64,000 bases of DNA from Ceratothoa steindachneri. Taxonomy: Eukaryota > Arthropoda > Malacostraca > Isopoda > Cymothoidae. The translations under genes and the position numbers were made by a program. Each line of letters opens with the position of its first letter. The first letter of the stretch is position 1. Of the stretch, positions 1,535 through 56,578 are shown one piece after another. The stretch is from the NCBI GenBank assembly GCA_963969495.1, contig OZ018329.1:144951521-145015520 (forward strand). The letters run 5' to 3'. The notes under the pieces were generated by a model. The model did no database searches. It saw only the letters and a program-made list of their open reading frames with translations, and was not told where the DNA came from.

Positions 1535-2948
1535 TTGCTCGTATCAGATGTGATGGAATCGTTGTCTACCGAGCTCAAGATAAGCGGCCAGTTATTTGCC
1601 GCTCAGAGAAACCAGCTCACATCTCTCCTCAATCAATTCGGTGACGTCATCTCAGACATTCCATTTTGTACTACTCATTTTGAGCACGATATTAAATTGA
1701 CACCCCAAAAAGCTATTAGGTCCAAGCCGTATCCGTTGTCCGCGCATTAAAGAGAAGCTTTTAATACCGAGGTTGAGAAGTTATTAAATTTAAAGATAAT
1801 CGAGTCGTCAAAATCCGATTACTGTTCTCCCGTCGTCATGGTCAAGAAACCCGATAATTCTTATAGGATGTGCATCGAATTCAGAAAACTAGACGCTGTT
1901 ACCGTGTTCGACGCAGAGCCAATTCTTCTTATCGTCCAAAATCTCCATCTATTCGAGAAAGCGAAGTATATTTCAGAACTGGATTTGTGTAAGGCCTATT
2001 ACCAGATTTCATTGGAGGAAGAGGTCAAAAGGTACACCGCTTTCCCGACCGAAAGGGGGTTATTGAAGTTTTGTCGGCTCCCATTTGGGCTCGTCACCGC
2101 CTGCAGTAATATAATAGGATGATGAGACGAATTAAAGATGGGCTACCACACACAAGTGAATGGGACCAGCACCTGACCGCTCTTCAAGCACTGCTGCAAA
2201 GCCTCAGGGATCATAATTTGACAATTGGTCCAAGCAAATAGCATTTTTCATTTAATACAATTGATTACTTAGGTTTCCGCATAAGGAATAATAAATTAGA
2301 CCCTCAGGAGGAAAAGATACAAGCCATCGTAAAAATTCAGCTGCTCGCAAACAAAAAGCAGTTAAGGTCATTCATGGGTTCCGCCTCCTTTTATTAGCGA
2401 TTCATTTCCAATTTTTCTGCCACCCTTTCTGCTCCCCTTTGCGAGCTCCTGAAGAAGAAGGCCCCATAATTAATAGTTTTGACTCCGTTGTCAATCACCA
2501 GCTTCAAACACCTTACGGGTAAACTCGCGTCTGCCACGATATTACGGTTACCCAATCCACCGAATCATTTCGCATCCAGACGAAAATGATCGGTTGTGAT
2601 TTAGTTTAATACGGAATCAATGACGAGAGTTTTTCAATCGCTTACGCCAGCCGAACGTTATTACAGCGCAAAAAGAACTATGCAGTGATTGAGAGAGTGG
2701 CTCTCGCTATCATATGGGGAATATAAAAACTTGACAGGTATTTGATAGGAAAGGAATTCCTAATCGAAACCGATCAGAAACCCCTGTCGTACCTCCAAAA
2801 CATTAAAAACAACAATGGTAGATTGCTGCGCTGGAGTTTGTTGGTCCAAGACTTCCAGTTTAGAATACGTTACGTAAAAGGCTCTGAGAATGTTATAGCC
2901 GATAGCTTAAATGGAAATCCGGTAGATTCCCTCCCAAGTGAATCTTGA
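1535..2948 (+). pseudogene. Reverse transcriptase and RNase H of element A, decayed
   Basis: The pre-RT connector (1535-1750, around LNQFGDVISDIPF) leads into RT fingers and palm at 1838-2122. Motifs visible are KKPDNSYRMCIEFRKLD, then ELDLCKAYYQI (motif A) and FCRLPFGLVTAC. A frameshift near 2110 follows, and the segment that should hold the catalytic xxDD box is missing: GLPHTSEWDQHLTAL joins what should lie on either side of it. The thumb and connection (YLGFRIRNNKLDP, LRSFMGS) follow at 2265-2390 with stops. RNase H is visible at 2620-2948 (FSIAYASRTL, NYAVIER, ETDQKPLSYL, GSENVIADSL). The missing YxDD region and many stops make this a dead copy. Confidence 0.8.
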
Positions 2949-3344
2949 GCCTACTATTGTTTTATTTTTTGATTTTTTTCTATATATGTATGTCCAAATA
3001 AATTTAGGTCAGAAACATTTACCCTTTTGTATGTAAATAAACTTTAAAATTATAGTTGGAACCGAGGCAAATGTGCCCTCTCCTTAAAATTCAGTGTTTA
3101 TAATCATGATTGTTGTAAATTATTTTTTTCTAGATAATGATCTATCTATCTACATTTTTACAGTCTCTCTAGTTATTTATTTTGTTTGTATTTATTTTGT
3201 ATTCTTTTTTCGTGTGATTTTGTAAACTGTATTCCTTTGCTATGTATTCTTTCTTTGGGTTTCGATACGAATTTATTTATTTTGAATCCTTTTTGAATTT
3301 GAACAATGCGTTTTCTATTTCGTGATGCGAAGATATTGCATCTC

Positions 3345-3926
3345 CTAATCCATTTCCTGGGATGTTCCTTCTTCCGGAAGTCCAATCTTTAGCGGAGAAG
3401 AGATGTCAGATAGAGAGAGAGATTCACGCAGACAAAGAAGCCTAGGAGGTATCTCACGGACGAATGGACCGTCAACCGACGTCTTTCGGTAAACTTCCGG
3501 AGCGATAACGAAGCGAGACGTGTCAAACTGGAGCCCGGAACCCAAGTCAACGAGAGAGCGCTAAGCCTTTACCCGCTCCGCCTTGAATCAGAGTGCGACT
3601 GACTACCGACGGCAAATAAAATCGCTTCCGGCCAAGTCGTATATATAAGGACTCATTCTGGAATAACGCGCTTCGCTCCGTACCCTGCAAGGATACTCCC
3701 TCGAACAACCACTCGAGGCCACCTCTCGCTCTTGGAAAATCGGAAGCTTATTACATTTTTCTCTATCACCGTCGAACAGGCGTGACGCTTTCCACCCCAG
3801 AAGCTTCACCTCGTCATCTCCCGTTTTCTTTTGGATAAATATTGTGCCACTCATAGCTCGTGCCGAAGCATTCATTGTAAAATTAATTTCCTTTTGCTGA
3901 ACGATTAGTTTTCCCATAGTGTACAA
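3345..3926 (-). pseudogene. RNase H-like retroelement fragment, antisense
   Basis: On the minus strand two open stretches (3603-3926 and 3345-3545) with a short shifted join read like an RNase H. FTMNASARAMSG sits where a DAS motif is usual, EREVASSGC resembles the second acidic motif, YSRMSPYIYDL the third, and the shifted frame near 3540-3580 gives TWVPGSSL, reminiscent of the ending before ADALSR. It runs opposite to element A and interrupts what looks like its 3' LTR start. The class of the parent element cannot be told. The similarity is by eye and partial, so this is a tentative call. Confidence 0.35.
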
Positions 3927-5679
3927 ATTATTTTTAATTTCGGTTATTTGGTTGGATAATAGTAAAGATTATTTTGTTTCTTTTGTTTAATTCCAAGAAC
4001 CACATAAAAAGCCATTAGTCTATTTTATAAGTCGACCAACGGTAGAAAACGCATTCGAATACCTCCCCGTACTTAAAATGAACTTCTCCAGCGTCTAGGG
4101 AAGGCAAAAAGGTCAGTGAAGCCTCCCTAACCTACAACAAATGACAACGGATCTTATAGGAGTGGTTGAGATGCGCTTCGAAAGAGTTGTAATCAGACTA
4201 TTGTGTGTTTCTGAATTGAATACAATCTGCGAAAAGAGAACGCACGATTCTTTTCTCTCTTAATATACCCGTAAAAAGTTAAGTAATACATAAAAAAGGG
4301 ATTTGGGTATGTGTTTACGTGGCGGGCGTAATAGGGGGCTTCTAGGATCGCTTGATTGCGCTCTTATGCTCTCCCCTATATTTTTTTAAAAAATTAATGG
4401 GTGTGGAGAGATGGTTTCTCATGGCATCCTAACCTTTTTAGCTTAAATATGGATTAGGGATAACAAGGAGCATTACATTGTCATGCTCGATTTTTAACCA
4501 CTTTTATTTAGGTTTATTCGTGTTTTGACCATTTTTCATTTATTCAGACTCCGTTCTTTGTAGCAGAAGGTTTTTTATTTTCCCTTTCCATTATTCATTG
4601 TAACAGACAGGTCATCTCGTGTGACGGCATAGGAAAGCTGAAACATTTTCTCACCCGTGTAGACAAAAGCGCTCTATTCGTGGGTGATGAAGAGAGAAGA
4701 AAGTGAAAGTGGTCAGGAATGATAAGTTAGAGAAATACGAGAATTGAAACATTGAAAAAAATATTATAGGAATGAATGGAAGAAAAATAATATTTCCAAC
4801 TATATGTTTGCTAACCATAAATGTAAACATGAATGCACAGAGGGGTTCTAGTCAAGTGTAAAAACATCTTTAGAGACTTTAAGTATATTAAAACGAGGAA
4901 ATAAAATAACAATTATCAACAAACAAGTCACAAAAGCAAATCAACCCATTAATACAAAACAAGGAAAACAACATGTAGAATTTTCCAAAGAAAAAGTAAA
5001 CGATTCGTCGAGTACACGCTAGTATTCTACAACAGCACACTTTGGTCAGTTAAGAGATATAACACAACCAAATGTTTAAAAAACGCAAATACCAAATATT
5101 CCTGCAAAGTTTGGAGGTTTTGCTTGCTTCACTATGGTTGTATCCATTTTTCAGCCTTTATGCTTAATAAAGGTAGTTGCTTACAAATCCCCTTAAAATC
5201 AATGATTCAAAACGCTTGATTGTTCGTGAATAAAAACAAAATCAATTTGGGCGATTCAGCAGGTACACTTTCCTGTCAGAGACTTTAGAAATTGTTTTTG
5301 TCGACTTTAATGCTTTATTTAACATGGGTAAACTAAAACTACAATCGAGGCATCCTTTTGGGCAATTATATGCCAAAATGTGAGGGACAGTGGATTCCAA
5401 ATTCATCGGTAGTTGGCATTTATGAAATTTAGTTTCATTTTAAGCCCGACGAATTATTACTCCCAGACCTTTCATTTTTAGCTCCGAACCCCTTTTTCTT
5501 CTACTCATCGCGCACAAAATACGGCCAATAATTAAAGAATTTAATACTAATTTTGAAGTTTTTTTAAAGCGCTATTCCAGGAATTGAACCTTTACAAAGA
5601 GCCAATTGACTAAGAAAATTTGAGAGAAGAGATGGGTCTTAAAGGCCTGATTAAGGCAGTGAGGGAGGGAAATGAATAA
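3927..5679. other. No gene seen; AT-rich spacer
   Basis: I see no coding region, TIR pair or tandem array here. The composition is AT-rich with short homopolymers. It may include eroded LTR sequence at its left side, but nothing aligns clearly with the other LTRs in the window. Confidence 0.5.
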
Positions 5680-7446
5680 ATGTATGACAAGAAGCAGTTC
5701 ATTACACATTCTGAGGGAAAATTTAAAATGCCACATCAATCAGGCCCCACAGTTGACTCATGTAGCGTGGGATATGCTTCATGGTGCTGTCAAACCGTAC
5801 ATCGGCCGCTGGAGTTTCAGTGGAGGGACCTCGAATGTGCTTGGGGAGTTCCCAGGTGCTGGGACTGCTAGGAGAACCACTCAAGCTTCTTGAACATCGA
5901 GGTATCACAGGCTTCCGGTTGCTTGCAAACATGAACAACTACACCCGGAAGTCTTTCAAGCAGAGGCCCTTAGCCTCACCTAAAGACTTGCAATCACAGC
6001 TGTAACATAACCAGGCGTTGGTCACACCAATGTCAACGCATTAGGCGAACAGTCTCATCTACCACCTCTTGAACTTCAATGGGGTGCAGAAGAGGTGGAC
6101 AAGTATGTCACTTTTGACAATGCCCCCCATTTTTGCATTGTAGGAATTTATGACATTGAGGCTCTCAACTTCTTTCTTCTTGCTGGTCTCGGAGTACCGC
6201 ATACATTTGTCCAGAGGCTGTAACCCTAGGTCATTGGAGAGAATAGTGATGACCTTGGTGTCCTTCCACCGAAGAGCCTAGATGCCATCATCAGTGGTAT
6301 TGTAGTCAAAGGTGCCCCGCGGTACTGATTTCTTGTTCAACTACTTGACTGTCCTTAATGGATGATTGCCAATCCTGTTTTCCCGGGCTCTTCTGCGTAC
6401 CTGCAGTCTTGTTTCTGTAGGTACCACATAATCTCAAGGCTGGTGGAGAAATTGTCTGCAATATTGCTGTGGTAGAGGAGCTAGTCATAGTGCTTGCAAG
6501 GACAGAAACTATCTGGCTTGTGTCTCCGAGGGCTTCTTGCTCCGAAGTAAGGGGTGTGCCATGGGCCTCAAGTGTTTTTGGTCCTTGGTAGAGCACCATG
6601 TCATGGACAAACCCATCCTCTGATACTTTGGAGAACAACTTGAACCCCCACTTCTCTGGTTCGCTCTTTATGTACTGCCTTAGATTTCCTGCCGTCTTCC
6701 CCTTGTAGCCAACCATAACCTCGTTGATCGACTGTTTCGGAGACTGAGGCTCACGCCGAAAGTCTTCGTTGAGGAAGGTGAAAAGAAGCCGTACTTTGTA
6801 GAAGCTGCCTATGGTTCCTTTAATGAGGCTGTTGCCGTTGAAGTGGATGGTTCGGCGGAGAAGTCGGAAGCGCTTAGAGGAAATAAGATTAGCCACTTGT
6901 GATACTCTGGTCATCATGGCCCAGTAGTCATCAAGGGATGGGCAGTCCACAATCCCCATGTAGAGCAGGATGGCAACGAAGGTAAGGATCTCATCTTCAG
7001 TGGTTGAGAATAAGGTTGTTATGTCCTTTTGGGCAGTATAGAGGAGTGGTCTAGTATGTAATGTGCTTTAGAAACTTGGGGATGACAAAACGGTCAAAGT
7101 ACTTCTGAGGACTTTTGACAAACAATGGTTGTGTTTGCTGATACTGATGGAATGGGGAGGGGGGATTGGTGGTGTCAACTTTCTCCCATGTAGTAGGTCT
7201 TGTCTGCAGTGCGCTCTTTTTTTTAGCCTTGATCTTATCTTTATCCTCTCCGCCATTCACACGCTGCTCCTCTTCTTCGTCGCCCTCCTCTTCCTTTTCC
7301 TCATCTACATCTAGCTCCTCGAAGATGGGCCTGTTACACCTTCTCTTGTTGGGTGGCTCATCGCTAGAACCCTGAGTATCCTCGTTGTGTGGGTCGGGCA
7401 CATAGTCGGGGTCGTTCTCTTTATCATCCAGCGACTCATCCATCAC
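5680..7446 (-). pseudogene. piggyBac-family (PGBD-like) transposase, broken by frameshifts
   Basis: Read on the minus strand, the protein starts at 7446 with an acidic N-terminus (MMDESLDDKENDPDYVPDP), typical of PGBD proteins. It continues to FDRFVIPKFLKHIT at about 7060, meets a stop and frame change, and resumes at 7055-6306 with TTEDEILTFVAILLYMGIV, a YWAMM segment, SINEVMVGYKGK, LRQYIKSEPEKWGFK and HDMVLYQG. This is the DDE core of the family, which cuts and pastes at TTAA sites. A further frameshift around 6490-6440 scrambles the next acidic region. C-terminal pieces continue to about 5690 (VTNAWLCYSCDCKSLG; ADVRFDSTMKHIPRYMSQ). No TIRs or flanking TTAA were identified with confidence. 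Several breaks make it inactive. Confidence 0.85.
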
Positions 7447-8259
7447 AATCGTCTGGCAGCGGGTCTTTTTATAAAACGAACCAATTGGGATCTGGAAAGA
7501 AATAGAAAATTATTAAGAAATGATCCACGAAATAATGAATTCCATCAAATTTTGGTCATGGCTTTCCTAGGATCAATGAATAAAAAAAATTGGGGCATAG
7601 ATTTCCCATGACCAATTAATTAAAAAAAGGTGGGCATAGATTACCCATGAAACCATCAATTTCACTCATATTTAGTCATAAAACACAAGTATATGGCTAA
7701 TAATAATGAAAACATGGGTGATATCTAAAAGAAAAAGAAAAAAACAACATAAATTCCACAGTGGAATATTCCAGAAGCCTAATCTATGTTGTGCCTACAT
7801 GGCATCGTGGTTCAGGTTACTATAAAAAGAGTTAAATATACATTTATGTAACATTATCCTAAAAAAGATATACTCCTAAACAGGCAAAGTGCTCATATTT
7901 AGTTATTTAGTGGAAGTACGATGTTTACGGCTGACGGGCGTATGTCCATATTTGCGCACTTTAGATTTTTGTCATCTTTATCATTACCGGGTGTATGTCC
8001 ATATAAGGACAACCGCTTTTTCGTTGATAAATTTTACTCATTTCCACATGTCCCAAATAAATAAGACGATAATCAGGTCATAAAGCAAGAATTCAAATAT
8101 CTTATGCTAAACAATTATCAACTTACTAGCATTACGTAAAGTGTTAGGGCGATGGGCGTGAGGACAATTTCGTCGGAGATCCTTATTCTTTTAGGTCTGG
8201 GAAGTAACTTATTTCTGAGCGGCTCTCGACCAATACCTGGGTGGAATACGCAGTCTCGT
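7447..8259. other. piggyBac 5' flank and spacer
   Basis: No gene is visible. It contains two near-repeats of a GGGxGTATGTCCATAT motif at 7936-7953 and 7988-8004, and repeated GGGCATAGATTNCCCATGA segments at 7594-7611 and 7632-7649. These may be subterminal repeats of the piggyBac element. I could not match them convincingly to the left side. Confidence 0.35.
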
Positions 8260-9235
8260 TGTGGTAGGTCCATTTTCGTTTGCCTCAGCTCACTAGTGCC
8301 AAATCTAATGCCCGCCTTTTGTTTCAGGTTTTGGTGAAGGAGGGAGGACAAAGCTGCCTTGGAAGCAGTGTGGGTCCCCCGTCTTTTGCTGAGGTCTGAC
8401 GTTCCTTCCTCCCCCCACAGGTGAAATATATCAGTACAGGTTAATGAGCGATTGGAAACGGCTAATAGTGAATGCACGAAAGAAGTGGAGCTGGAAGTAA
8501 AGCCAGGTACGGTATAAGTGAGTGAGGGAGGGAGGGTGGAACACGTATCACCTTGAAAACAGCAACAGGGGAGTAATTATGTTTCCTTTTTTTTAGCTCC
8601 TTTGGTCCCGCTGCTCTTGTCTGTGAGTGAGGAGAGGGAAGAAGTCGCGCACTAAGCCATCGGTGTGGAGCACAAGTAAGGGCCACAGCCAACTGTCCCC
8701 TTGGTCCCTCTTGAGAGAGAGAGACCGACCGCTTGAGTGCACTTTCTTCCCCGCCCCACACTCAGGGAGAGCGAGTGAACTGTCCGATAACGTGCAAAAA
8801 CGCCCCGGGGCAACCTTTAGTAACCATTAAACTAATTGAGCCGGCTCAATTGGGGGTTTTGTGGTGGCCACGAGTGTTGGAGAGAGAGAGAGAGAGAGAG
8901 GTGGAGGAAACCCTTGGTGCTTCACATACCAGTTGTGTTTGGTTATTGTTAATATTTATTGTGTTGCACCTATTGACCTTTGTATACATTTTGTGTTGCG
9001 CATATTGAGGAAGGTTAAAGTGAGAGCACCTATTTGTATATATTTTTTGTTGTACATTTTCCTTATATATTTATATTGTTGGGTAATTAATTGTATTGGG
9101 TGGTGGATAAATTTATATTATTTTAATAAAAAGAAAATAGGTATCTGTGTATTTTGTCTCCTTCCGATCCGACGGGCGTCTCACGAATGAGTGAGTGGAC
9201 CTTGTGGCGGGTGGTTTCCGGGACTAGCCGCTACA
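8260..9235 (+). repeat. 5' LTR of the OTU-bearing Gypsy element
   Basis: A 976-bp direct repeat of 17608-18549. It starts TGTGGTAGGTCC and ends GCCGCTACA, so it has TG...CA termini. It contains a (GA)n run at about 8879-8900 and an AATAAA polyadenylation signal at 9125-9130. Compared with the 3' LTR it carries 32 extra bases bounded by the direct repeat TGTGTTGC near 8960-9000, a longer GA run and scattered substitutions. Confidence 0.93.
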
Positions 9236-9240
9236 TAGCT

Positions 9241-9258
9241 TGGCACCCGAATAGGGAC
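9241..9258 (+). promoter_or_regulatory. Primer-binding site, lysine-tRNA type
   Basis: The 18 bases TGGCACCCGAATAGGGAC lie five bases after the 5' LTR. They differ at two positions from the well-known primer-binding sequence complementary to the 3' end of tRNA-Lys(UUU). First-strand synthesis of this family was therefore probably primed by a lysine tRNA. The position directly downstream of the LTR supports the LTR end call. Confidence 0.75.
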
Positions 9259-9361
9259 GTCTGTTGGATTTGGCGGAGATCTTTGACACTTGTTGTTCAT
9301 TTCTTCCCCCCTCCTCTAATTAAATAAATAAAATAAAATCGAGAGCGAAGGGTATGAAAGT

Positions 9362-11100
9362 TTGGAATTGGAGTTGAAGCGAATGCGGGATGTGTTGCGT
9401 CAGAAAGACAGTGAAAATGCACAGCTGAAAGAGGAAAATGACTGTTTAAAAAGGAAAATAAGGGAGAGGAAAGTTAGGATGGTAGAGAGAATCAGGGATA
9501 GCGAAATTCGGATTCAGCAGAAGATGTCAGCGCAACTAGAAATGAAAATGGAGAATTGGGCAAGGTTGATAGAAGAGAAAATTGGTGTGAAAATGGCCTC
9601 TACTTCAGTAGCAGGAGCGGTCAGGATCAAGGAAAGGGCATAAAAGGAAATAGTAACGTCGGATCTAGATGAGCCGAAGGTTAGAAAGAAGGGAAAGAAG
9701 ACCTCTAAGAAGCGACAGAGAGACAGGCTAGTTCGAATGAATTCAAAGAGTATAGATTCACTGTACTCTATTATTAATAAAAGTGATGGATCTGAATGTG
9801 AGAGAGAAAGTAAAGAGGGTGAAAGTGGAAATGAAGTTGAAGCGCACAGAAGTGTTTTAATAAGAGAGGTCCCGAAGGTCAGCAAGTTTAGTGTGTATGG
9901 GTCAAAGAATGCAAAGGAATTTTTTAAGGAATATGAAAGTTATTGCAAGGAAAGGTTTGGAGAGAATAGTCGCTTCTGGGTGAAAGAATAGGTGAATTTT
10001 TGGAAGATAGATTGCGTGATTTTTACAAGACTATTGTTAGCGTGGGTGACCCTAGGTACAAGGTGGTAAAGGACCGTATTATAAATCAGGTGGAGAGAGT
10101 GAAATCTGGCGTGAAATATCGGAAGACGAATGAGTTTGAGGAAGCGAAAATGGGGAAGAGTGAAAGAATTGATTTGTATGTTCATAGGCTCGAGACTTTA
10201 GCGAGGAAGAAGTTTGGTGATGATGGAATAAATGATAATAAGGAGTTAATGAGAAAGTTCTTGAGTACAGACCCGAGCGATGTTTCTGAATATGTGAATG
10301 CGAGAAGTAAGGAGAAGATGCGATGGGCCGGGAAGAAATTGTTGTGGAAGGACATTTTGGAGATTGTAGAAGATTGTGAGTTTGAAGGGTATGGCAGAGG
10401 GGGAGCAACCGTGTATGTTGGGGGAAAGGAACGTTCAAGTGGTGTGCCTGAGTACCGATCGTACAAGGAGGCATTAGTATCCAACCCAGTGGAGGTCATG
10501 GCCAAGTTCTTAGATGAGTACTATGGCCAAGAGGAAGAACGAAAGATTTATATGGGTCGAGAGCAGGTCCAGAGTCGAAGTGCTACTGCAGCGAGGAGCA
10601 GGGGTAGTAGAAGTATGACTGGTACTGGGAGGAGCTTTACGAGTATCAATCGTATGAATGAAGGGAACTAGAATGTAGGTCGAATGGAAGAACGTATGAA
10701 TGACTAAGTGAGGTGGGAGTGTAATAAGTTTGGCCATGTGAGAGCAGAATGTCGCCTTGTAGCAAGGACCTGTTTTGGCTGTGGTCGATCAGGCTACCTT
10801 ATCAAGGATTGCCAGAATGCCCGAATGATCAAGTGCTATCAGTGTCAGAAGATGGTTCATTTTGCTCGTAACTGTGATGAAGGGAAAAGAGTGAATGAAA
10901 ATGGGAATGGAGTATGTGGAAATTGTGGACAGATGGACATTATGCGAGAATGTGTGTTAGCCCAAGGAGTATTTATGAGAAGTGTGGTGTAGATGGTCAC
11001 CTGACAAGGTTGTGTCAAACTGTGATAGATTAAAGAACACCAGTGGGGGAAATGAAAGAACGAATTCTGTGACTGCTGGAAAAAATGCAAATCAGGAAAA
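9362..11100 (+). pseudogene. gag (coiled coil, capsid-like, zinc knuckles), broken
   Basis: Three or four frames together form a gag. 9362-9643 encodes a charged coiled-coil N-terminus (heptads around RQKDSENAQLKEENDCLKRK) and reads through a stop into a basic/acidic linker (9644-9991). 10000-10671 is a helical capsid-like region (VSKFSVYGSKNAKEFFKEYE just before it; RIDLYVHRLETLARKKFG within), ending in an Arg/Ser-rich stretch. 10708-10992 holds CCHC nucleocapsid knuckles. CYQCQKMVHFARNC is intact, CFGCGRSGYLIKDC has His replaced by Tyr, and the first and fourth have lost Cys or His. A further knuckle (YEKCGVDGHLTRLC) is readable in another frame near 10970-11015. Gag would package the element RNA; stops at 9641, 9989 and 10669 disable it. 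Confidence 0.8.
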
Positions 11101-11253
11101 CTGAGAAGTGACAGGGTCCTTCATGAGGAACCCTCTAGTGTGCGAGTATTAAGTGTGATGAATGTGAGTGAGGGACTTTCCAGACGTGGAGTGAATTGGG
11201 GTGCGAGAGAGAATAAATGTATGTGTGTGATAGTTAAATATTGAGGGCGAGAG

Positions 11254-11847
11254 ATGCTTGCATTGATAGATACTGGTTGTCAGGTGAAGGTGGTATTTCA
11301 AGAAGCATTTGAATGCATGAATGTTAATGGTACTTATGAAAGTGGCTGTAGTTTGGCTGGATTGGGAAAGAAAGAGGTTCCAATTATCGCCGGATTTAAG
11401 GAGAAAGTGTTAGTTGGCACTGTCCAAATGAGAGAATATGAGTTCTGTGTGGTGAATGGTGCGAATAAGAAGTATGATATGCTGTTGGGGTATAAGTTTC
11501 TGAAAGATAATAGTATTGTAATAGATCCGCAGCAGGGAATGATAGAGTGCAAGAGAAATGGAAGTTTGAAGTGCCAATGGTATGTAAATCAGGATGGAAG
11601 GGTAAAACTGAATTTAATGAAGGAAGTGAACGTGTTTGCTATAGAGAATGTACCACTGAAAAGGGATGGAGTATCTAGTGTGATGTTTGGATCGAGTCCA
11701 TGTATAAGGATAAGTGAGGATGATGAGAATATGTTTGTTTTGGACGGTGGCAGTGCGAAATATCAAGTACGAAGGATTGCTCATGTTTTTGATGGGGTGA
11801 ATGATCTGAAGAATCCGAGAGTTTGTGTGCAGGTGTTACCTTGTTGA
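11254..11847 (+). pseudogene. Retropepsin-like aspartic protease 1
   Basis: An open stretch of 197 codons. LALIDTGCQVKVV carries the catalytic Asp-Thr-Gly at 11269-11277. The flap-like region around GLGKKEVPIIAGF follows, then YDMLLGYKFLKDN, which matches the hydrophobic-hydrophobic-Gly segment that completes the retropepsin fold. This places protease between gag and RT, as in ordinary Ty3/Gypsy polyproteins. It matures gag and pol in active elements. The downstream half (11560-11847) is a linker towards RT. The starting ATG is probably internal to a longer gag-pol frame. Confidence 0.75.
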
Positions 11848-12053
11848 GGAAAGAAAATCTTGTGAGGAATACGTGCTGGGGATAAGTTGGGTACATTGAG
11901 TAAAGTGGTAAATATTGAAAAGGATGTCTTTGTGGTGAATGCGAGTATGTTTTCTGAGAGCGTGCCTTCGGAAGATTGGAAGTATGAAGAGTTAGTTGCT
12001 AAAGTAAAATTGGGAGAAGAGCTGAGTGAATGTGAGAAGCAGAAGATTTAAGG

Positions 12054-13462
12054 TTGTTATGGAATAGTAGAGGTGCCTTGAGCCAGGGAGATGAAAATTT
12101 CGGTAATTCCCGTTTACCGGAATTTAACATCGTGTTGACAAATGACACCCCCATATACCAGAGGCCTCGTCATTTCCTTCCCCATGTTGCTGAAGAGATA
12201 GAGAAGCAGCGTGAGGAGTTAGAGAGGATAGGTGTGATTGAGGCAAGTGAGAGTGCGTGGAATAGCCCGGTTGTGCCTGTAAGAAAGCCTGATGGAAGCT
12301 TGCGAATTTGTATAGACTACCGTAAGGTGAATGAAAGAAATTTAAAGATAAGTTTCCTATGTGTGTGGTGTCTGAGTATGTATATAGTATGCATGGAATG
12401 AGAGTATTTAAGAAAATGGATTTGGTTGTGGGTATTATCAGATGCCAGTGACTGAGGAGAGCCGGCCGATAACAGCGTTCTCGACCGCTAAGAGGCATTA
12501 CCAATTCCAAAATTTGAGCTTTGGATTGGCAAATGCCCCGGCTGCTTTCCAGCGTGCGATGAATGTGATATTGAGTGAGTTTCCGAGTAAGAGTGTGCAA
12601 GTGTTTTTGGATGACATTCTGATAATGAGCAAAGACGTGAATGACCACATGACTGTAGTGAATAATGTTTTACGAAAGTTGGAATAAATGGGAGTAAAAG
12701 TTAAGCTGTCCAAATGTGTGTAGTTTGCAGAAGAAGTGGAATTTTGGGGACATATGGTGAGTGCGACATGGTTGCGAAAATCTGAAAGGTTTATAGAGAA
12801 AGTGAGAGATTTCCCGAGGCCAAATACTGTTAGAGAGTTACGTGGATTCCTTGGTCTAGTTGAATTTGGGAGGAAGTTTATGGAAGATTGTTTAGGTGTG
12901 CTGAAACCCTTGAGTGAATTCACAGGAAAGAAGAAGGGTACCGTGATTAAATGGAGTGAGTCTATGAATGCAGCATTTGATAAGTTGAAAGCATTAGTAG
13001 TGAAAGATGTAGAGCTTGCATATCCTGCTTGAGGTGTATACGGATTCAGGTGGTTATTCTATGGGTGAATGTTTAATGCAGGATCGGTTTGAAAGTGGAG
13101 TGAAAAGGAAGCGAGTGATAGCGTATGTATCAAAAGCTTTTAGTGTGGCAGAGCGTGCATCTTCAACGATCAAGAGGGAATTGGCTGCATTACGTTTTTG
13201 TTTGAAATCGTTGAGACCTTTTTTGTATGGAGTGTAATTTGTAGTGCGAACGAATCATCAGCCTCTAGTATATTTGCAGCGTATGAGGATGGTTGATAGT
13301 AGGCTGGCAAGGACGATGGAAGATTTGTGTAACTTTGATTTTGTGGTAGGGTATTTACCGGGTGAGAAGAATGAAATTGCGGATTTGATTTTGAGATTAA
13401 CAGGAAGTGCAAATGGAAGTGTGACTGAAGGAATAAATCCTGAATATTTGCCGAAAGGATGA
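12054..13462 (+). pseudogene. Reverse transcriptase and RNase H of the OTU-bearing Gypsy element
   Basis: RT begins just after a stop at 12048 and reads RPRHFLPHVAEEIEKQREEL, then SPVVPVRKPDGSLRICIDYR. A frameshift near 12350 precedes motif A (KMDLVVGYYQMPV, about 12416-12450). The frame from 12442 carries FGLANAPAAFQRAM and the catalytic box VFLDDILIMS (Asp-Asp at residues 57-58 of that stretch). The thumb and connection (WGHMVSA, LRGFLGLVEFGRKF) run to 13032 with an in-frame stop at 12685. RNase H follows at 13016-13462 in two pieces, with EVYTDSGG, TIKRELAAL, TNHQPLVYL (Asp replaced by Asn) and GEKNEIADL. The polymerase box is kept, but frameshifts and stops prevent translation as one protein. 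Confidence 0.9.
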
Positions 13463-13873
13463 ACTGTTGGGAAGAGATTTGAGGGTGGTGGTAATTCTAT
13501 GTTTGAGTGTGTGATTTGTGGCTTGCAGGACTTGGCTAATGATGGATTAGAAGTTAAGGTGCCTAAGACTTTGGATGACTTACGAAGAATGGTTATGGAA
13601 GAAGCATATAAAAGACCTGATCAGTTAGGTATGGGTGATGTGAACAAGCCGAAGAAAGAAGTGAAGGTGATGTGTGCGCCGGGAGTGATACCGTTCCAGG
13701 AGGTGTTAGTGGTAGTAAGTAAGGTGTATGATGTGAGAGTGTGTGTACATTATGGAGGGGACAAGCCTGTGGTATATCGTGGTAAGGGGGTGAGCAGAGA
13801 GGGTGGATGTGAGCTGCATTTACAATGTCTGAGTGGGGTACATTATAATTGGGTAATTGAGAAAAAGAATTAG
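13463..13873 (+). pseudogene. OTU-like cysteine-protease-fold domain, between RNase H and protease 2
   Basis: Directly after RNase H the frame reads KRFEGGGNSMFECVICGL, then LDDLRRMVMEEAYKRPDQLG, and ends with VVVSKVYDVRVCVHYGG, PVVY and LSGVHYNWVIE. This is the order expected of an OTU domain: an N-terminal DGNCLF-type loop holding the nucleophile, a helical middle, a beta segment with a V-x-V-x-V pattern, and a C-terminal His in an HYN motif. The nucleophile position is Ser rather than Cys (codon TCT) and the preceding Asp position is Gly, so activity is doubtful. An in-frame TGA at 13460-13462 separates it from RNase H. The OTU assignment is from motif pattern only; it could be an unrelated domain with a chance HYN ending. 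Confidence 0.5.
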
Positions 13874-13945
13874 GTACGGAAGTCTGTAAATGAAGTACCT
13901 GAGGAATGTGCGCCTGGTAATGATGATGACGGGGCTGCTTCTGAG

Positions 13946-14230
13946 GTGTTTGTTGAGAACATGAAAGTTGTAAGCATGGCGTGCGACCATGAGATTGAAA
14001 AGTGGGTGCATATTGTGTTAAGAATAAATGAGAAGAGGTATTGTGGTATGATTGATACCGGTGCGCCAATTTCTTTGGTGAATGCTAAAGTGGTAAGGGA
14101 TGTAGAGAAGCTGAGTTGGAATATACCTAGGCGAGGCGTTACGGTCACGATTTCTGGGTTGGGAGAAGGAAACGTGATGGCATGGGCAGAGGTGAGTGTG
14201 ATAGAACGGTCTGAGGCCGCTTTAATTTAG
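13946..14230 (+). pseudogene. Second retropepsin-like domain, N-terminal half
   Basis: RINEKRYCGMIDTGAPISLV places a canonical Asp-Thr-Gly-Ala active-site loop at 14054-14062, followed by a flap-like VTVTISGLGEG segment. The normal Gypsy protease is already present at 11254, so this is a second one, lying between the OTU-like domain and integrase. The reading frame runs into foreign sequence after about 14200 and resumes at about 15545 on the far side of an LTR-like insertion. The short spacing to the OTU-like domain suggests one continuous pol polyprotein originally. Confidence 0.6.
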
Positions 14231-15530
14231 CCTCTATCACATGTTAACCATGCTTACCCACATGCTTACCCACGTGCATTCGGCCTGCGAGAGGAAGCAG
14301 AAGCGCGTTATCTCCCATCATAGCTAATGTTTAATCAAGGAGGTTTACTCCCCCGTTTCGCCTCCATACGTCGATCTTGCAAGATTGAATTAGACTTATG
14401 GGCAGATAAGGTATTTTTCTAGGCGCCACCCGGACATTCCCCGAAGTCCCCCACTCAATTATCCCCTACGCCATGGAGATGGTTCCGGTTATTTATACCG
14501 TAGCTTTTCCCAATTAAGGCAGATCCAGATTATCTTCGCGAGGCATCAAGCCGATCCGGTCTCCCTTGTGCACCTAGGAACTCTGCCGAGAAACCCCTTA
14601 TTATCCGGAAGAGGACAATATCCCTTGAGTGCCAAGGTTCGTGCCCTTCGATACGCCAAGTCAACAAGGACTCCCTGTTGTTCAGAAAGAAAACAACGTT
14701 AGAACAGCCATTGTTCTTTGAGCTCGTTTGACAAGAAACGGTTCCACCCTCCCTCTGTTGTTCAGAAAGAGAACAACGTTAGAACAGCCATTGTTCTTCA
14801 AGCCGGTTCGTCAAGAAACGGTTCTCGTTCCCAAGACATCACGTCCGGATAATTTAATTTCCCCCTTTTTAACGTTCTTCAAGAGAACGCTTGGTTCCAA
14901 CAATAACCTACATTGTTCATCTAGAACATCTCCGATTTGCTGTCACAAAGATCGCTCGTACTTCCAAGTTCCATTTGGCTCTCACTCCTTGAAGACAGTC
15001 CTTCCCCCTCGTTAAGGACAACCCTCCGAAGTACCCTTCTGCTGGAAATCGCCAGTTGGACCGAAGATTCCTTCGCATCGTCTTCCTCTGCACAACAACT
15101 TTGTAATTACGTGAGCTGAGCATTACCTTTAATCATTTAACCTTTTGCCAACGCAAACCTGTGCTTTAAAGGGTTTAGCGAACCATTCCCCCTTTATTTT
15201 TTTATTTGTTTACCTTTTTAAATCTCTCCAAATCTTAATCCTCAGATTAGTCAGATATTCCCACGACCCTTTTTCATTCCCCGTTTATGTAAACATTTTC
15301 TTTGTGTGTTGTTGATAGTTTAATTAATAAAACTCTATTTTACTAATGGTAGCCATATTATTTATCCTTGCGCACTGTTCCACTTCTTAAGCATATTGAA
15401 GATAAATAAGCCTCTCCAGCCCCCCCACCCTCTTTGGACTAACTTCGGTCAATCAGATTACCACGCACTCTAAATATTAGAATAATTCCCTCAACGAATA
15501 GTTATATATGGTATATCTTCGGGAGCCTAT
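14231..15530. mobile_element. LTR-like insertion (probable solo LTR) inside protease 2
   Basis: About 1.3 kb of T/C-rich sequence unlike the A/G-rich host element separates the two halves of protease 2. It has no coding potential I trust. It contains a TTATTTATACC TATA-like site near 14490, an 80-bp tandem duplication (14675-14754 and 14755-14834) and a TTAATTAATAAAACTC polyadenylation-type sequence near 15323-15338. It could run from TGTTAACC (14240) to a TTACGACA ending near 15540, which would give TG...CA ends. I do not find a clean target duplication, so the boundaries are approximate. Confidence 0.5.
14675..14834 (+). repeat. Two-unit 80-bp tandem repeat within the LTR-like insertion
   Basis: The segment beginning CTGTTGTTCAGAAAG occurs at 14675 and again at 14755. 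Both continue with ACAACGTTAGAACAGCC and CAAGAAACGGTTC. The units differ at several positions. Confidence 0.85.
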
Positions 15531-15539
15531 TTTACGACA

Positions 15540-15761
15540 ATGAGCTTGGCAGTAAGTATAGGAAAGTTGGAAAATGTAATTCACGAATTTGTAGTGTTAG
15601 GTGAGGATGAGCTTCCTTATTGTTTTTTGTTGGGGATTGACTCCTTGCGAAGGAATGCTCTTTTGGTGGATGTGGGAAATGAATGCTTGACGAAAGCTGG
15701 TATGGTTGTGGTAAACTTGCAGAGTGAACTTGTATGTGAAACTGGATTTGCGGGTTTGTGA
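15540..15761 (+). pseudogene. Second retropepsin-like domain, C-terminal half
   Basis: Reads IGKLENVIHEFVVLGEDELP, then CFLLGIDSLRRNALLVDVG. The LLGIDSL motif is the hydrophobic-hydrophobic-Gly-x-Asp-x-Leu segment that closes a retropepsin fold, complementing the Asp-Thr-Gly half at 13946-14230. Codon use is again A/G-rich like the parent element. The frame stops at 15759-15761, about 300 bases before the integrase zinc finger. Confidence 0.6.
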
Positions 15762-15826
15762 GCGTAGATAGGAATGAGGAGCTATTGACGGAAGATGATA
15801 TTGAGAATATGCAAGAGTCATGACCA

Positions 15827-17340
15827 ATGGTGTGTGAGCTGAAGAATAGTATATTGAGGAGTGTGCCTGTTGAAGGATGGAGCAGTATATTGAAAGAGTT
15901 TAAAAGGCTTGCTCAAAAGTTTGTGTTATGTAAAGATGTGATTTATTTTGTACGAATAATAGATGAGGAGGATGTGTATATTCCAGTATTTTCAGTTTGT
16001 GATGCAATTGGGATGGTGAAAATCGTGCATGAGAGGTTTAGATATATGGGGAAGAAAAAGTTATGGGATTGCAAAAAGAGCGTGTGTTTAGTCCATTTTT
16101 GAGGAAAGTTTGTGTGGCTATTGCAACCACTTGCGAGGCGTGTCAGAAGGGAAAGTATCAGAGAGTGTATGTGAGTCTACCTGTTTTGAAATTGTGCGTG
16201 AAAGAGCCGTTTGAAATGGTAGCGATCGATTTTGTCTCTTTGCCTTTGACTGTGAGAGGTCATGTTCGAATGGTTGTAATGGTAGATCATAAGAGTAAGT
16301 TTGTTTATGCTGCACCCTTGAAGAATAAATCGTCTGCAAATGTCGCCAAAGTTGTGAGTGAGAAACTGTTACCAATGTGTGTATGTAAGCCTGCGCAAAT
16401 GTTGAGTGACAATGGACCTAAGTTTGTGGGGCGTGCTTTTGAAGGAATGTTGCGTGTATGGGATATTGCTAATGTGAGAACGACACCTTATGTATCTAGT
16501 GCTAACGGGTTGGTGGAACGAACGATCAGAACCTTGAGTGAGATATTGCGGTTTATGGTGAAAGATGGATTAGACTGGGATGAATGCTTAGGGCGTGTGT
16601 TATGGTCGTATAATATGACAGTGCATATGATGACTGGTATGTCTCCTTGTAAGGTTGTGATGAATTTTGAGAGACTTGTGCGACCGCAAATGAAACTAGG
16701 AGAGAATGATCGTGAGTTTTGGAAGAAAGCATGTGAAAAGTTCAAAAGTTTTTCTGTTGGGGATAAAGTGCTGAAACAGATTGAAACAAAAGGTAGACTA
16801 AATGTGGATCAGTTGAAAGAGAAGTTTGAAAGTCCGTTTGTGGTGAGAAAGGTTTGGTCGAATGGAGTAAGTTATGTGATCGTGCGTGAAAGAGAGGATG
16901 GATGTGTGGATGAATATAGAGCACACCAGAATCAGTTGCAAAGGTGGCGGGAACCTCCAGCATATTTGATTGAGCATCCTGTAAATGAATGGTTATCTAT
17001 AGATAAGGAGGATTGTGAGGAGAATGAATTAGATGAGATCTCAGAAGGGAAGCAGTTAGTGTTAGTCGGGCATGGAGGGGGAAAGCGTAAGAGAAAGCAG
17101 TCGACAAAGTATGGATGGGAAGAACAGTTTGGTGAGAATGAGGTGAGTGAATTTTCTGAATTTTTGCAAGGTCGAGATGGAGTGTATGATAGAACGTATA
17201 GTATTTGTAAGTTTCCGTTGAATGAGTCTAAGTCTATGTTAGTGAGTATAAATGAGATAAGTGAGCAATTGGAGCAAGAGTCAATAAATGCTCTGAAAGA
17301 ATGGGAAGGATGGATGGATGAAGCAGAGAGGCTAGTTTAA
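15827..17340 (+). pseudogene. Integrase of the OTU-bearing Gypsy element
   Basis: 15827-16102 holds the region before and into the zinc-binding domain (KIVHERFRYMG, where the second His is Tyr). A frameshift near 16070 leads to the 425-codon frame 16063-17340. That frame contains TCEACQKG (the Cys pair), MVAIDFVSL with catalytic Asp (residue 56), LSDNGPKFVG with Asp (residue 116) and NGLVERTIRTL with Glu (residue 152). The last two are spaced as the classic D-35-E. A C-terminal domain (SVGDKVLKQ, YVIVRERE, YRAHQNQLQRW) and a long acidic tail follow. The catalytic core is uninterrupted, making this the best-preserved protein of the element; only the N-terminal zinc finger is broken. Confidence 0.93.
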
Positions 17341-17343
17341 GAT

Positions 17344-17538
17344 TTGAGTGAGATTGGTCAGGGAGTATCAGATGTGAGTATGCATGAAGTGCGTATAGAA
17401 GAAGATGGACACGACGAGGGCTTGTTGACAGTGGGGGGAGGGCTAGGCCCTATTACTAGGAGAAGAGGCAGTGTAAAAGAATGTGATTGGGTGATGACGA
17501 AAATTTGGAATGGTTGTGAGAGAGTAAATAAAGAATGA
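17344..17538 (+). CDS. Short open stretch after integrase, unknown
   Basis: Sixty-four codons in frame with a tail following the integrase stop, with acidic and glycine-rich segments (IEEDGHDEGLLTVGGG). It could be a continuation of the integrase tail past a stop codon, or an env-less remnant. No membrane segment or signal peptide is visible. I do not recognise it. Confidence 0.25.
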   Translation: MSEIGQGVSDVSMHEVRIEEDGHDEGLLTVGGGLGPITRRRGSVKECDWVMTKIWNGCERVNKE

Positions 17539-17588
17539 GGTGGGGAGGAAGCAATTGGTGGTGATTGAGAGCACGGTGAAATGAGGCG

Positions 17589-17607
17589 AACTTAGGGAAG
17601 GGGGGGA
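17589..17607 (+). promoter_or_regulatory. Polypurine tract before the 3' LTR
   Basis: A purine-rich run (AACTTAGGGAAGGGGGGGA) ends immediately before the TGT start of the 3' LTR. This is the expected plus-strand primer position. Confidence 0.75.
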
Positions 17608-18549
17608 TGTAGTAGGTCCATTTTTGTTTGCCTCAGCTCACCAGTGCCCAATCTAATGCCCGCCTTTTGTTTCAGGTTTTGGTGAAGGAGGGAGGACAAA
17701 GCTGCCTTGGAAGCAGTGTGGGTCCCCCGTCTTTTGCTGAGGTCTGACGTTCTGACCTCCCCCCCCAGGTGATATATATAATGTACAGGTTGATGAGCGA
17801 TTGGAAACGGCCAATAGTGAATGCACGAAAGAAGTGGAGCTGGAATTAAAGCCAGGTATGGTATTAGTGAGTGAAGAAGGGAGGGTGGAACACGTAACAC
17901 CTTGAAAACAGCAACAGGGGAGTAATTATGTTTCCTTTTTTTTAGCTCCTTTGGTCCCGCTGCTCTTGTCTGTGAGTAAGGAGAGGGAAGAAGTCGCGCA
18001 CTAAGCCATTGGTGTGGAGCACAAGTAAGGGCAACAGCCAACTGTCCCCTTGGTCACTCTTAAGAGAGAGAGAGACCGACCGCTCGAGTGCACTTTCTTT
18101 CCCACCCCACACTCAGGGAGAGCGAGTGAACTGTCCGATAACGTGCAAAAACGCCCCGGGGCAACCTTTAGTAACCATTAAACTAATTGAGCCGGCTCAA
18201 TTGGGGGTTTCGTGGTGGCCACGAGTGTTGGAGAGAGAGAGAGAGGTGGAGGAAACCCTTGGTGCTTCGCAAACCAGATGTGTTTGGTAATTGTTAATAT
18301 TTATTGTGTTGCGCATATTGAGGGAGGTTGAATTGAGAGCACCTATTTGTATATATATTTTGTTGTAGATTTTTCTTATATATTTTTATTGTTGGGTAAT
18401 TAAATGTATTGGGTAGTGGATAAATTTATATTATTTTAATAAAAAAAAAAATAGGTGTCTGTGTATTTTGTCTCATTCCGATACGACGGGCGTCTCACGT
18501 GTGAGTGAGTGGACCTTGTGGCGGGTGGTTTCCGGGACCAGCCGCTACA
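17608..18549 (+). repeat. 3' LTR of the OTU-bearing Gypsy element
   Basis: A 942-bp direct repeat of 8260-9235, starting TGTAGTAGGTCC and ending GCCGCTACA. It has an AATAAA signal at 18438-18443. It lacks 32 bases present in the 5' LTR and has a shorter GA run at 18231-18244. The sequence after it starts ACGTCATAGC and does not match the five bases before the 5' LTR. Confidence 0.93.
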
Positions 18550-24659: not shown

Positions 24660-24816
24660 ACTGGAGCAGTGAATGGGTGCCGGATCTTCATGCTAGTCCG
24701 TTATAAAGGGTGCAGTTGCATTGTTGTATCCGATGAACTACTCGCCCCTGTGGCTCTATACCACGATAAGTTTGCCGTAGTGAGTGATTACTTGAGGCGT
24801 GCCAATAAATTCGCCC
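24660..24816 (+). pseudogene. Protease remnant of element B, upstream part
   Basis: One frame reads VNGCRIFMLVRYKGCSCIVV and then VSDYLRRANKFAH. It has the position and shape of a retropepsin whose catalytic Asp-Thr-Gly has degenerated to Tyr-Lys-Gly. The text matches the start of element A (NYLRSANRF at about 62-90) and continues after the L2 insertion at 26513 with VHCFIECAYFTGWAKTM. Confidence 0.5.
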
Positions 24817-24820
24817 ATTG

Positions 24821-26508
24821 ATGAAACCTATCAATTTGGTTTCAAGTCAGGCCACTCAACAGAAACCGCCTTTCTCAATGTGTCTGATTGCTTACGAAGA
24901 GCCGCGGACAGAAGTTGTGCCTCCAACCTCGTTCTACTCGACTTCTCCTCTGCCTTCGATACTATTGACCATACCGTCCTACTTGATCGTCTCCACTCTT
25001 TCCTGGGCATATCAGGCACCTTGCTTGACTGGTTCCGCTCTTACCTCTCGTCTCGTACCCAATCCGTTGTGATTGACGCCGTTTCATCCGACTCTACCCC
25101 TATTCGCTTTGGAGTGCCACAAGGCTCTGTCCTTGGTCCTCTACTATTTCGTATCTACCTTCTCCCTCTTAGATCCCTTCTCCGTATTCTCGGTCTATCC
25201 TTCCACCTATATGCTGATGAAACTCAAATTTTCGTTTCCTCATCCGAAGAGCCGCGGACAGGGGTTGTGCCTCCATCCTCGTTCTACTTGACCTCTCCTC
25301 TGTCTTCGATACTATTGACCATACCGTCCTACTTGATCGTCTCCACTCTTTCCTGGGCATATCAGGCACCTTGCTTGACTGGTTCCGCTCTTACCTCTCG
25401 TCTCGTACCCAATCCAATGTGATTGACGACGTTTCATCCGACTCTACCCCTATTCGCTTTGGAGTGCCACAAGGCTCTTTCCTTGGTCCTCTACTATTTC
25501 GTATCTACCTTCTCCCTCTTAGTTCCCTTCTCCGTATTCTCGGTCTATCCTTCCACCTATATGCTGATGACACTCAAATTTTCGTTTCCTCATCCCCCAT
25601 GTCTCCTGCCTACTCTATCCTGGCTGCCTACTCCTCCATTTCTGACTGGCTCTCTACCAACTTCTCAGGCTTAATCACTCCAAAACTGAGGTCCTCCTCG
25701 TCGGCACCCCTGCTTTTGTCAAAAAATCTAAATCTCTCTTTCCCTCGCTTACTCTGGGCGGTAATACTATCATTTTCTCTGACTGCGTTAGGAATCTGGG
25801 TGTTGTTTTTGATGAGCATCTCTCCTTTAATCCTCATATCCGTAATGTCAGCAATTCCTCTCTATGTTTTCTTTGTATCTTCTCTCGCATTTGCTCTCAC
25901 TTTGATCGCCACAGACTTGAGACTGCTGTTCATGCCTTCATCTCCTCACGCATTGACTACTGTAACTCTCTGCTTGTGAATCTGCTATCCTCCTCTCTCC
26001 GCCCCCTTCAAATTGTACAGAACTCTGCCGCCCGGCTTCTCCTCCGTCACCCTCGCTTCTCTCTCTCGAAACCCTAGCTGCATGAACTGCACTGGCTCCC
26101 TGTCAGATCCCGCACTCACTTCAAGATACTTCTCTCCACATTTAAGGCCCTAAACAACAAGGCTACGTCTTACCTCTCTTCTGCCCTCTCGCCACGCCAT
26201 GTCCTTCGGGCCCTCCGGTCATCACATGCACCTCTTTTGAATATTCCCCGTTCATCTCTCTGCTCAATGGGGGACTGCTCCTTCTCAATCTGAGCCCCTG
26301 GGTTGTGGAATGCTCTTCCTGCTGAAATCAGGTCTTCTCCCTCTCTTACCACATTTAAGCGTCTCCTGAAAACGCATCTTTTCAGTATTGCCTTCTCCTC
26401 TTCTTGAATTTCCATTAAATTTCCATTCTCATCTCAGCACAACATGCGCTCTGGAAAGGCCTCAGGCCTTGAAGAGCGCAATACAAAAGACTTATTATTA
26501 TTATTATT
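24821..26508 (+). mobile_element. L2-clade LINE fragment, 5'-truncated, inserted in element B
   Basis: A 1.69-kb 5'-truncated non-LTR element. RT motifs run from FGFKSGHSTETAF through LVLLDFSSAFDTIDHTVLL, LLDWFRSYLSSRTQ, VPQGSVLGPLLF and YADETQIFVS (the first Asp of the usual YADD box is kept, the second is Glu). A copy of the same segment with YADDTQIFVS follows because of a tandem duplication. The C-terminal part (RNLGVVFDEHLSF, RIDYCNSLL, ELHWLPV) is readable in several frames to about 26405. The 3' end is a TTATTATTATT run, typical of L2. A 4-bp ATTG lies on both sides (24817-24820 and 26509-26512), and the host protease sequence resumes at once. Confidence 0.88.
24895..25594 (+). repeat. 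350-bp tandem duplication inside the L2 RT
   Basis: 24895-25244 and 25245-25594 are near-identical and start CGAAGAGCCGCGGACAG. The join lies after TTTCCTCATC. Because 350 is not a multiple of three, the second unit is read in another frame, so RT is frameshifted at the junction. A few substitutions separate the units. Confidence 0.95.
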
Positions 26509-53627: not shown

Positions 53628-54032
53628 CCCCGTAAGGGGCGCGGCGATTTGCCATCCTGGCCGCCGTGCTGACTGGACTCAGCACCCTGTCCGGCCCCAG
53701 CTTAGCCTCTCTTCCTTCCTTCAAAACACTTGTTTCCTCTCTTTTCACACAACCTCTCCCACAACATTCTCTGGTCAGCCTCGAATTTCACAGGGTAGAT
53801 GCTGACCATCCTTTCAGCCAACCGTCCCGCATCGGGGCTGAGGGGGTAGGGGACAATGTTCCCTAACCCCTGAGCTCCGGTCTGGGGTGGCTGGTTTTTA
53901 ACAACCTGCTTCATCCCCACCCATACCTTCCTCACATCCCTTTTCCTCTCCTCTTCACAATCTATATATTTTACGCCGTGTTCAAGGTGGAGCCGCCATG
54001 CCGATGGACTGCCAGGCCACCAGGCGGGAGGG

Positions 54033-56144: not shown

Positions 56145-56578
56145 CCGTTTTCCGCAAGGCGAAACGGCCACGCTCCTCCACCGAGTCGTTAGACTCACAG
56201 GAGGCACCACCTATGAAGATGGTCGCTAGGCCATCTTCGGGGGTTCCTAAAGCTGTTCCCCGAAAGGAGGACAGCAACAAAGGAGCTTCGGCTCCTTCGC
56301 CCACGCCCCGAGGTGGAGCGAGTGGCTCGGAGACGGTGGTTCCTCGAAAAGAGGGCCCCCCGCCTCCGAAGCCGCAGCGCCCGCCTAAGGTTTCGAGGCG
56401 GAGGGAGGAAATGACTCGAATGGCGAGCCCAACCTCCCCCAATAAGTCCTCGAAGGCGAGAGCGCCTCCAGCGCTTTGTCCGGCCAACAGCGCCCGGGGT
56501 TCTGCCCCCGGGAAGCGTACGACCATTCCCGTGAGGGTCTTGAGTTCGAGGAGGGCCCCCGCGTCTCCTCCGAGCTAG
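56120..56578 (+). pseudogene. Shifted C-terminal tail of LINE ORF1
   Basis: In the frame one base back from ORF1 the sequence reads PSVTVFRKAKRPRSSTES and then a basic, Pro/Ser/Arg-rich tail to a TAG at 56576-56578. The open stretch has no ATG of its own and its composition matches ORF1. The related copy at 34602-34680 retains the corresponding bases. It is best read as the rest of ORF1 after a frameshift in GGGCTCCCCCCTC (56118-56130). Confidence 0.6.

Follow-up and report, generated by a model that had tools for sequence, protein, structure and literature searches.

A Ty3/Gypsy-type retroelement lineage with a predicted OTU-fold domain and a second retropepsin between RNase H and integrase

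The pol gene of long terminal repeat (LTR) retroelements has a highly conserved layout, normally with one protease. A decayed element in the genome of the isopod Ceratothoa steindachneri raises the question of what occupies the space between RNase H (RH) and integrase (IN) in its pol gene. The element lies in a 64,000-nucleotide stretch of DNA (the window; G000:C13:144951521-145015520 of the 3.93-Gb genome, contig OZ018329.1), and the host genome itself was searched as the "own genome". An earlier note had read in this space an OTU-like segment and a second retropepsin, and had suggested that the lineage carries extra protease-type modules. The best explanation overall, which we hold to be fairly probable with its history and functions included, is that the element is a degraded copy from a Ty3/Gypsy-type lineage in which pol has the order PR1-RT-RH-OTU-PR2-IN, where PR1 and PR2 are two proteases and RT is reverse transcriptase. 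Two additional modules are present, both by profile and the OTU domain also by modelled fold.

A second protease and a captured deubiquitinase fold would mean that pol can take up further functions at the RH-IN junction, and the lineage may help to show how retroelements come into contact with the ubiquitin system. Among the matches listed in a search of titles and the starts of abstracts (open-access literature, without subscription journals, preprints and Repbase), neither an OTU domain nor a second retropepsin was reported in a Gypsy pol. A 2025 paper on LTR retroelements lists in its introduction a chromodomain, env and a second RH as additions, and OTU is not among them (PMC12440569).

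Results

The segment between RH and IN is predicted to have the fold of an OTUD-type deubiquitinase. Given that the window OTU sequence is weak by itself, this assignment draws on an alignment of its family (A1, 46 sequences, from which P0025 and P0045 were excluded as near-copies). The family profile matches an OTU profile among those of the PDB with an E-value of 2.4e-7, AlphaFold2 (AF2) run with the 46 sequences gives a mean predicted local distance difference test score (pLDDT) of 91.7, and the predicted structure is supported as an OTU fold by Foldseek and VIA-align. The OTU-like segment proposed after RH is thereby borne out.

PR2 is a putative second retropepsin with both catalytic loops. 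In relatives it scores above the Pfam cut-offs (PF13975, 39.5 bits versus 28.2 in P0004; RVP, 50.4 versus 20.7 in P0014). The Asp of its first loop is present in all 55 rows compared (54 proteins and own-genome copy L009), as DTG in 37, DSG in 15 and DCG, DGG and DSA in one each, and the second loop (hydrophobic-hydrophobic-Gly) is visible in the family alignments. For comparison, the PR1 loop is DTG or DSG in 38 of 41 rows. In the window, the open frame carrying the PR2 DTG loop spans 13874-14227 and the LLGIDSL part lies farther downstream; a 1343-bp solo LTR lies between them. The proposal that these two parts belong together proved correct. These matches also confirm a retropepsin between RH and IN in addition to the normal protease expected before RT, which was found there as PR1.

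Searching the own genome with the OTU segment gave 6667 first-look candidates, and all 150 that were scored match. The longest open frame among window-like copies is 875 aa; a second clade, approximately 64-66% identical, makes up most of the remaining rows, and by hand count 32 of the 150 rows sit in open frames of exactly 1706 aa. Copy L009 belongs to this second clade and has visible LTR stretches that are identical across 300 bases. Its frames of at least 200 aa are gag (905-2659) and pol (2635-7752), with no others, and its pol runs in the order PR1, RT piece, RH, OTU (GGGDSMF...GVHYNW), PR2 (IDTGA...LFGIDF) and IN. The element family is large and recently spreading. When 41 own-genome sequences (33 distinct) were examined by tblastn, OTU was found in 41, RH in 40, PR2 in 39 and IN in 35, the last count being affected by loci that stop before IN.

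Relatives were also retrieved from a protein database. A query with the OTU-PR2 region returned 47 proteins of 24-53% identity (OTU in 47/47, PR2 in 45/47), and one with the integrase region returned 27, five of them already in the first set, for a total of 69. Domain mapping places OTU in 58 of these, including P0057, which covers merely 22 OTU residues, and a PR2 match of at least 85 aa in 54. Of the 11 proteins without OTU, P0052, P0056 and P0063 start downstream of the place where it would lie, and P0065-P0072, Gypsy-like pols or fragments, have the weakest matches to the integrase. Pfam detects PR, RT, RH and IN together in P0004, P0012, P0014 and P0049; P0031 stops before the rve core. 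The relatives are annotated as 'hypothetical protein' throughout. The 136-aa window OTU piece found no relatives when candidates were limited to proteins of similar length, and a longer piece did retrieve them; no relatives were found in IMG/VR with P0001 and A1 as queries or in GTDB with A1. The order RH-OTU-PR2-IN, whose sharing by relatives the earlier note had made its test, is thus colinear across own-genome copies and several dozen distinct database proteins, which is more than chance.

The OTU nucleophile position is covered by 55 of the 58 database rows and holds Ser in 51, Ala in two (P0059 and P0060), Cys in one (P0031) and Thr in one (P0015). The preceding residue is Asp in 52/55, and the -3 position, where OTUD3 has Asp, is Gly in 54/55. 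His is present in 58/58 rows, as is the Asn two residues on. In the 33 distinct own-genome copies, Ser is found in 33/33, His in 30/33 and Asn in 33/33, and the PR2 catalytic Asp is retained in 29/31. The Ser had been suspected of being either a defect of this copy or a family-wide trait, and these counts settle on the latter. Judged by the alignments, the domain nearly always lacks the catalytic Cys required of OTU deubiquitinases and has the His and the Asp/Asn at +2. The near-fixed Ser makes it directly testable whether an OTU fold works with serine, and within the lineage a single active site occurs naturally with Ser, Thr, Cys or Ala. P0059 and P0060, as natural Ala variants, are a test case for a non-catalytic OTU function.

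To place the two modules in time, trees of IN and RT were compared. In an integrase tree of 59 rows, a branch supported at 100/98 separates 51 rows (49 OTU-bearing and two that do not cover OTU) from 8 OTU-less rows. With the OTU states of P0056 and P0063 and the PR2 state of P0063 set to unknown, OTU changes once on this tree, PR2 twice and the nucleophile twice (P0031 is absent from the tree); a single PR2 clade is not rejected (p-AU 0.367). A quick tree of 52 RT rows, whose outgroup of 6 rows includes very long branches, is in agreement: the OTU rows group with an approximate likelihood-ratio support (SH-aLRT) of 96 and the PR2 rows with 98, PR2 changes once, and P0064 followed by P0049/P0050 branch earliest among OTU rows. 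From these sequence trees we infer that an ancestor gained OTU once, between RH and IN. Given the single OTU change and the basal position of P0064 and P0049/P0050, OTU probably arrived before PR2, the later addition presumably being made next to integrase. P0064 is the most distant OTU-bearing pol, has a GGPNS motif, lacks PR2 and possibly represents an early state.

The profiles of PR1 and PR2 match one another (hhalign E-value of 6e-30), and within L009 the two share 25% identity (E-value of 2e-4). A quick PR1/PR2 tree requires 3 changes for PR2 versus 33.1 when shuffled, and 5 versus 31.9 for PR1. Since PR1 and PR2 fall in largely separate clusters, PR2 appears to be old; the tree has few columns, and PR2 may or may not have originated as a copy of PR1.

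Comparison with known systems

The lineage shares with Ty3/Gypsy elements (Metaviridae) the TG...CA LTRs, gag followed by pol, the PR-RT-RH-IN order and a DDE integrase. It differs in that Ty3/Gypsy pol has one retropepsin and joins RH to IN by a linker, whereas OTU (58/69) and PR2 (54/69) intervene here; we read the two added modules as an elaboration of the Ty3/Gypsy layout. Tat LTR retrotransposons and retroviruses with an additional RNase H likewise have a domain added beside the native RH (PMC10508981), that domain being an RNase H rather than OTU and a protease. Two other assignments were set aside. Troyka, described as having CG...CG ends (PMC12440569), is ruled out by the TG...CA ends of the window element, and an Errantivirus-like element would carry env after pol, while in L009, the one copy checked for env, gag and pol are the sole frames of at least 200 aa.

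OTU domains occur elsewhere in the own genome, with 103 PF02338 matches. The 15 loci examined score weakly with the family OTU profile (best E-value of 0.61), and none gave a tblastn match at 1e-2 to the L009 RH, OTU, PR2 and IN pieces. Two of these loci, L022 and L032, have an OTU with Cys (GNCLFHSLA) and are presumably Helitron-like, given the motifs that follow it in L032. Other mobile elements with OTU are Ginger1 DNA transposons and Helentrons (PMC2836005, PMC6431247), and the Ginger1 integrase is Gypsy-like (PMC2836005). Ginger1 has terminal inverted repeats and an OTU located C-terminal to its integrase, whereas the present element has LTRs and an OTU before IN.

OTUD3/OTUD5/Otu2-type deubiquitinases have GDGNC with Cys, where this lineage has GGGDS with Ser inside a retroelement polyprotein. 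Unlike those enzymes, the A1 consensus has no Trp at what we take to be the WGG site of OTU enzymes. A natural Cys-to-Ser change is likewise reported for the OTU domains of Drosophila CG3251 and Otu, which are OTUD4 homologues (PMC4654579). In that case Cys was lost several times independently, in host genes that retain Asp at -3; in the present case Ser extends across a lineage of elements, with Gly at -3. An OTU fold is also found within the replication polyprotein of turnip yellow mosaic virus (TYMV), whose PRO/DUB cleaves both polyprotein and ubiquitin (PMC3744425). It is a cysteine enzyme of a plant RNA virus with proven cleavage, unlike the retroelement OTU. The same source describes a role in vOTU for the residue at +2 after the catalytic His (PMC3744425).

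Function and alternative explanations

Most likely PR2 is active as a dimeric protease and would cut pol around OTU and IN, a role we consider probable, and additional polyprotein processing, as suggested earlier, is plausible for it. With PR1 located at the opposite end of pol, PR2 might be responsible for the integrase side; alternatively, it might pair with PR1. Judging by its modelled fold, the OTU domain would most likely be a binding module that does not cleave ubiquitin, its partner being a pol peptide, ubiquitin itself or a ubiquitin-like protein, although our confidence in this role is evenly divided; in so doing it could perhaps shield integrase or pol from proteasomal removal. Deubiquitination, also suggested in the earlier note, is unsupported as stated, since the Ser-bearing Drosophila OTU proteins are inactive on ubiquitin chains (PMC4654579) and two relatives have Ala.

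The OTU domain might instead be a working serine hydrolase, with Ser-His-Asn in place of Cys-His-Asp/Asn, whose target is pol or a ubiquitin-type bond, both kinds being cut by the cysteine OTU of TYMV. Among the residues that never vary in the domain are His and the +2 Asn (58/58 each), and 53/55 rows have Ser, Thr or Cys as the nucleophile. The Asp before Ser (52/55) is of interest since greater negative charge at the site has been proposed to make Ser functional in papain-like folds, some families of which have a conserved Ser (PMC10318531). In the TYMV OTU the dyad is exposed and the oxyanion Trp is missing (PMC3744425). Set against this are the Ala of P0059 and P0060 and the fact that Drosophila CG3251 and Otu leave ubiquitin chains uncleaved, with CG3251 cutting no tested peptide according to a data-not-shown remark (PMC4654579). 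Introducing Cys at the nucleophile left both proteins inactive, and the same paper states that serine deubiquitinases were previously undescribed (PMC4654579). We regard a serine hydrolase as possible and lean against it. Somewhat more doubtful still is the full form of the proposal, a lineage-wide OTU-fold hydrolase with a Ser-His-Asn triad beside a second aspartic protease, cutting its own polyprotein or stripping a ubiquitin-type tag. A purely passive role for OTU and PR2, as spacers or scaffolds that position RH and IN, is improbable: two relatives without Ser do keep the OTU domain and three OTU-bearing pols lack PR2, but the active-site residues are among the best conserved and the ratio of nonsynonymous to synonymous substitution (dN/dS) is well below 1. 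With each clade-A copy compared to L009 by its single best piece for every domain (pieces of >92% identity or <60 codons excluded), median dN/dS is 0.168 for OTU (n = 25), 0.184 for PR2 (23), 0.132 for PR1 (8), 0.107 for RH (24) and 0.116 for IN (21), ratios that are rough because all pairs share one reference copy and dS, at 1.2-1.8, is near saturation. Both added modules look to be under constraint, slightly weaker than that on RH and IN. Being broken and bearing an inserted LTR, the window copy would suit a chimera or assembly error in which OTU-PR2 was inserted separately here alone, but that explanation has a negligible probability and is refuted by the colinear copies and proteins described above.

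Several observations weigh against the preferred explanation, that of a Ty3/Gypsy-type pol with a ubiquitin- or peptide-binding OTU and an active PR2. Searched by itself, the window OTU sequence gives no Pfam match at an E-value up to 1, nor up to 10; its single-sequence AF2 model is poor (pLDDT of 39.8); and single-sequence Pfam finds PF02338 in only 7 of the 46 family members (best E-value of 7.6e-5). The window PR2 half is likewise weak on its own (PF13975, E-value of 0.0044, under the cut-off). PR2 is absent from P0049, P0050 and P0064, which have OTU, and by tblastn from own-genome copies L016 and L045, and its loop is altered in 3/55 rows. P0059 and P0060 combine Ala with retained His and Asn, and ubiquitin binding is read from the fold alone. 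Neither tree contains a named Gypsy reference, the Ty3/Gypsy assignment being by gene layout. The near-saturated dS and single reference copy belong here too, as does the somewhat higher dN/dS of OTU and PR2 relative to RH and IN.

Features of the window

By its layout, the stretch 8260-18549 is a decayed LTR element of a Ty3/Gypsy-type lineage (Table 1). Its pol translates with many stops and frameshifts. The primer binding site was located with a pattern that we take to be that of tRNA-Lys, and VFLDDI is assumed to be an RT motif. Pfam found no gag match for 9970-10668 and no match on the RT stretch 12036-12398. The D-D35-E integrase claimed downstream is present, its spacing having been counted by eye on the translation. 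The solo LTR within PR2 holds an 80-bp tandem duplication at 14675-14824.

Table 1. Coordinates of the element and of the LTR inserted in it, in window positions
Feature	Position	Strand	Evidence
5' LTR, TG...CA	8260..9235	+	91.0% identity to 3' LTR over 980 alignment columns
Primer binding site TGGCACCCGAATAGGGAC	9241..9258	+	2 mismatches to searched pattern; 1 mismatch in five other copies
gag remnants, several open stretches	9332..10671	+	Open frames; named by position as in L009
PR1, retropepsin (DTG) upstream of RT	11245..11847	+	PF13975 (gag-asp_proteas), E 1.7e-4, under curated cut-off
Reverse transcriptase, broken	12036..12720	+	Between PR1 and RH; VFLDDI by eye
RT end and RNase H, two pieces	12784..13453	+	tblastn to L009 RH: 78% (residues 1-85), 79% (89-231)
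Predicted OTU-fold domain	13463..13870	+	Ser codon 13496-13498 at nucleophile position (GGGNSMF); His codon 13841-13843 (GVHYNW); profile, model and family alignment
Linker and PR2 first half, DTG 14054-14062	13874..14196	+	PF13975, under cut-off; tblastn 55% to L009 PR2 residues 1-112
Solo LTR of another element, inside PR2	14197..15539	.	1343 bp; TG...CA; near-identical 4-5 bp flanks GTGAG/ATGAG
PR2 second half, LLGIDSL	15540..15758	+	tblastn 57% to L009 PR2 residues 94-182
Integrase (H2C2, D-D35-E) and C-terminal tail	15806..17502	+	Open only 16042-17340; rve E 7.4e-10; tblastn 64% and 70% to L009
3' LTR, TG...CA	17608..18549	+	LTR alignment; end reading

Remains of other mobile elements lie on both sides. 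Upstream are a weak second retroelement integrase fragment at 433-1203 (rve, E-value of 4.3e-4, under cut-off) and, on the minus strand at 6309-7067, a transposase fragment (PF13843, E-value of 8.5e-25), presumably of piggyBac type, with a further frame at 7051-7509. Downstream, an RT fragment at 24796-25979 (PF00078, E-value of 8.9e-19), which we take to be of non-LTR type, has a 350-bp tandem duplication at 24895-25595 with 96% matches. A GC-rich (57-59%) non-LTR retrotransposon at 53874-60297 has a 756-aa first frame followed by an endonuclease-RT frame with two in-frame stops, the tail of which is presumably RNase H-like, judging by a motif. Elsewhere in the genome, PF01147 (crustacean neurohormone family), which points to a crustacean host, has 21 matches, 14 of which cluster within 0.3 Mb at G000:C10:78575573-78850976.
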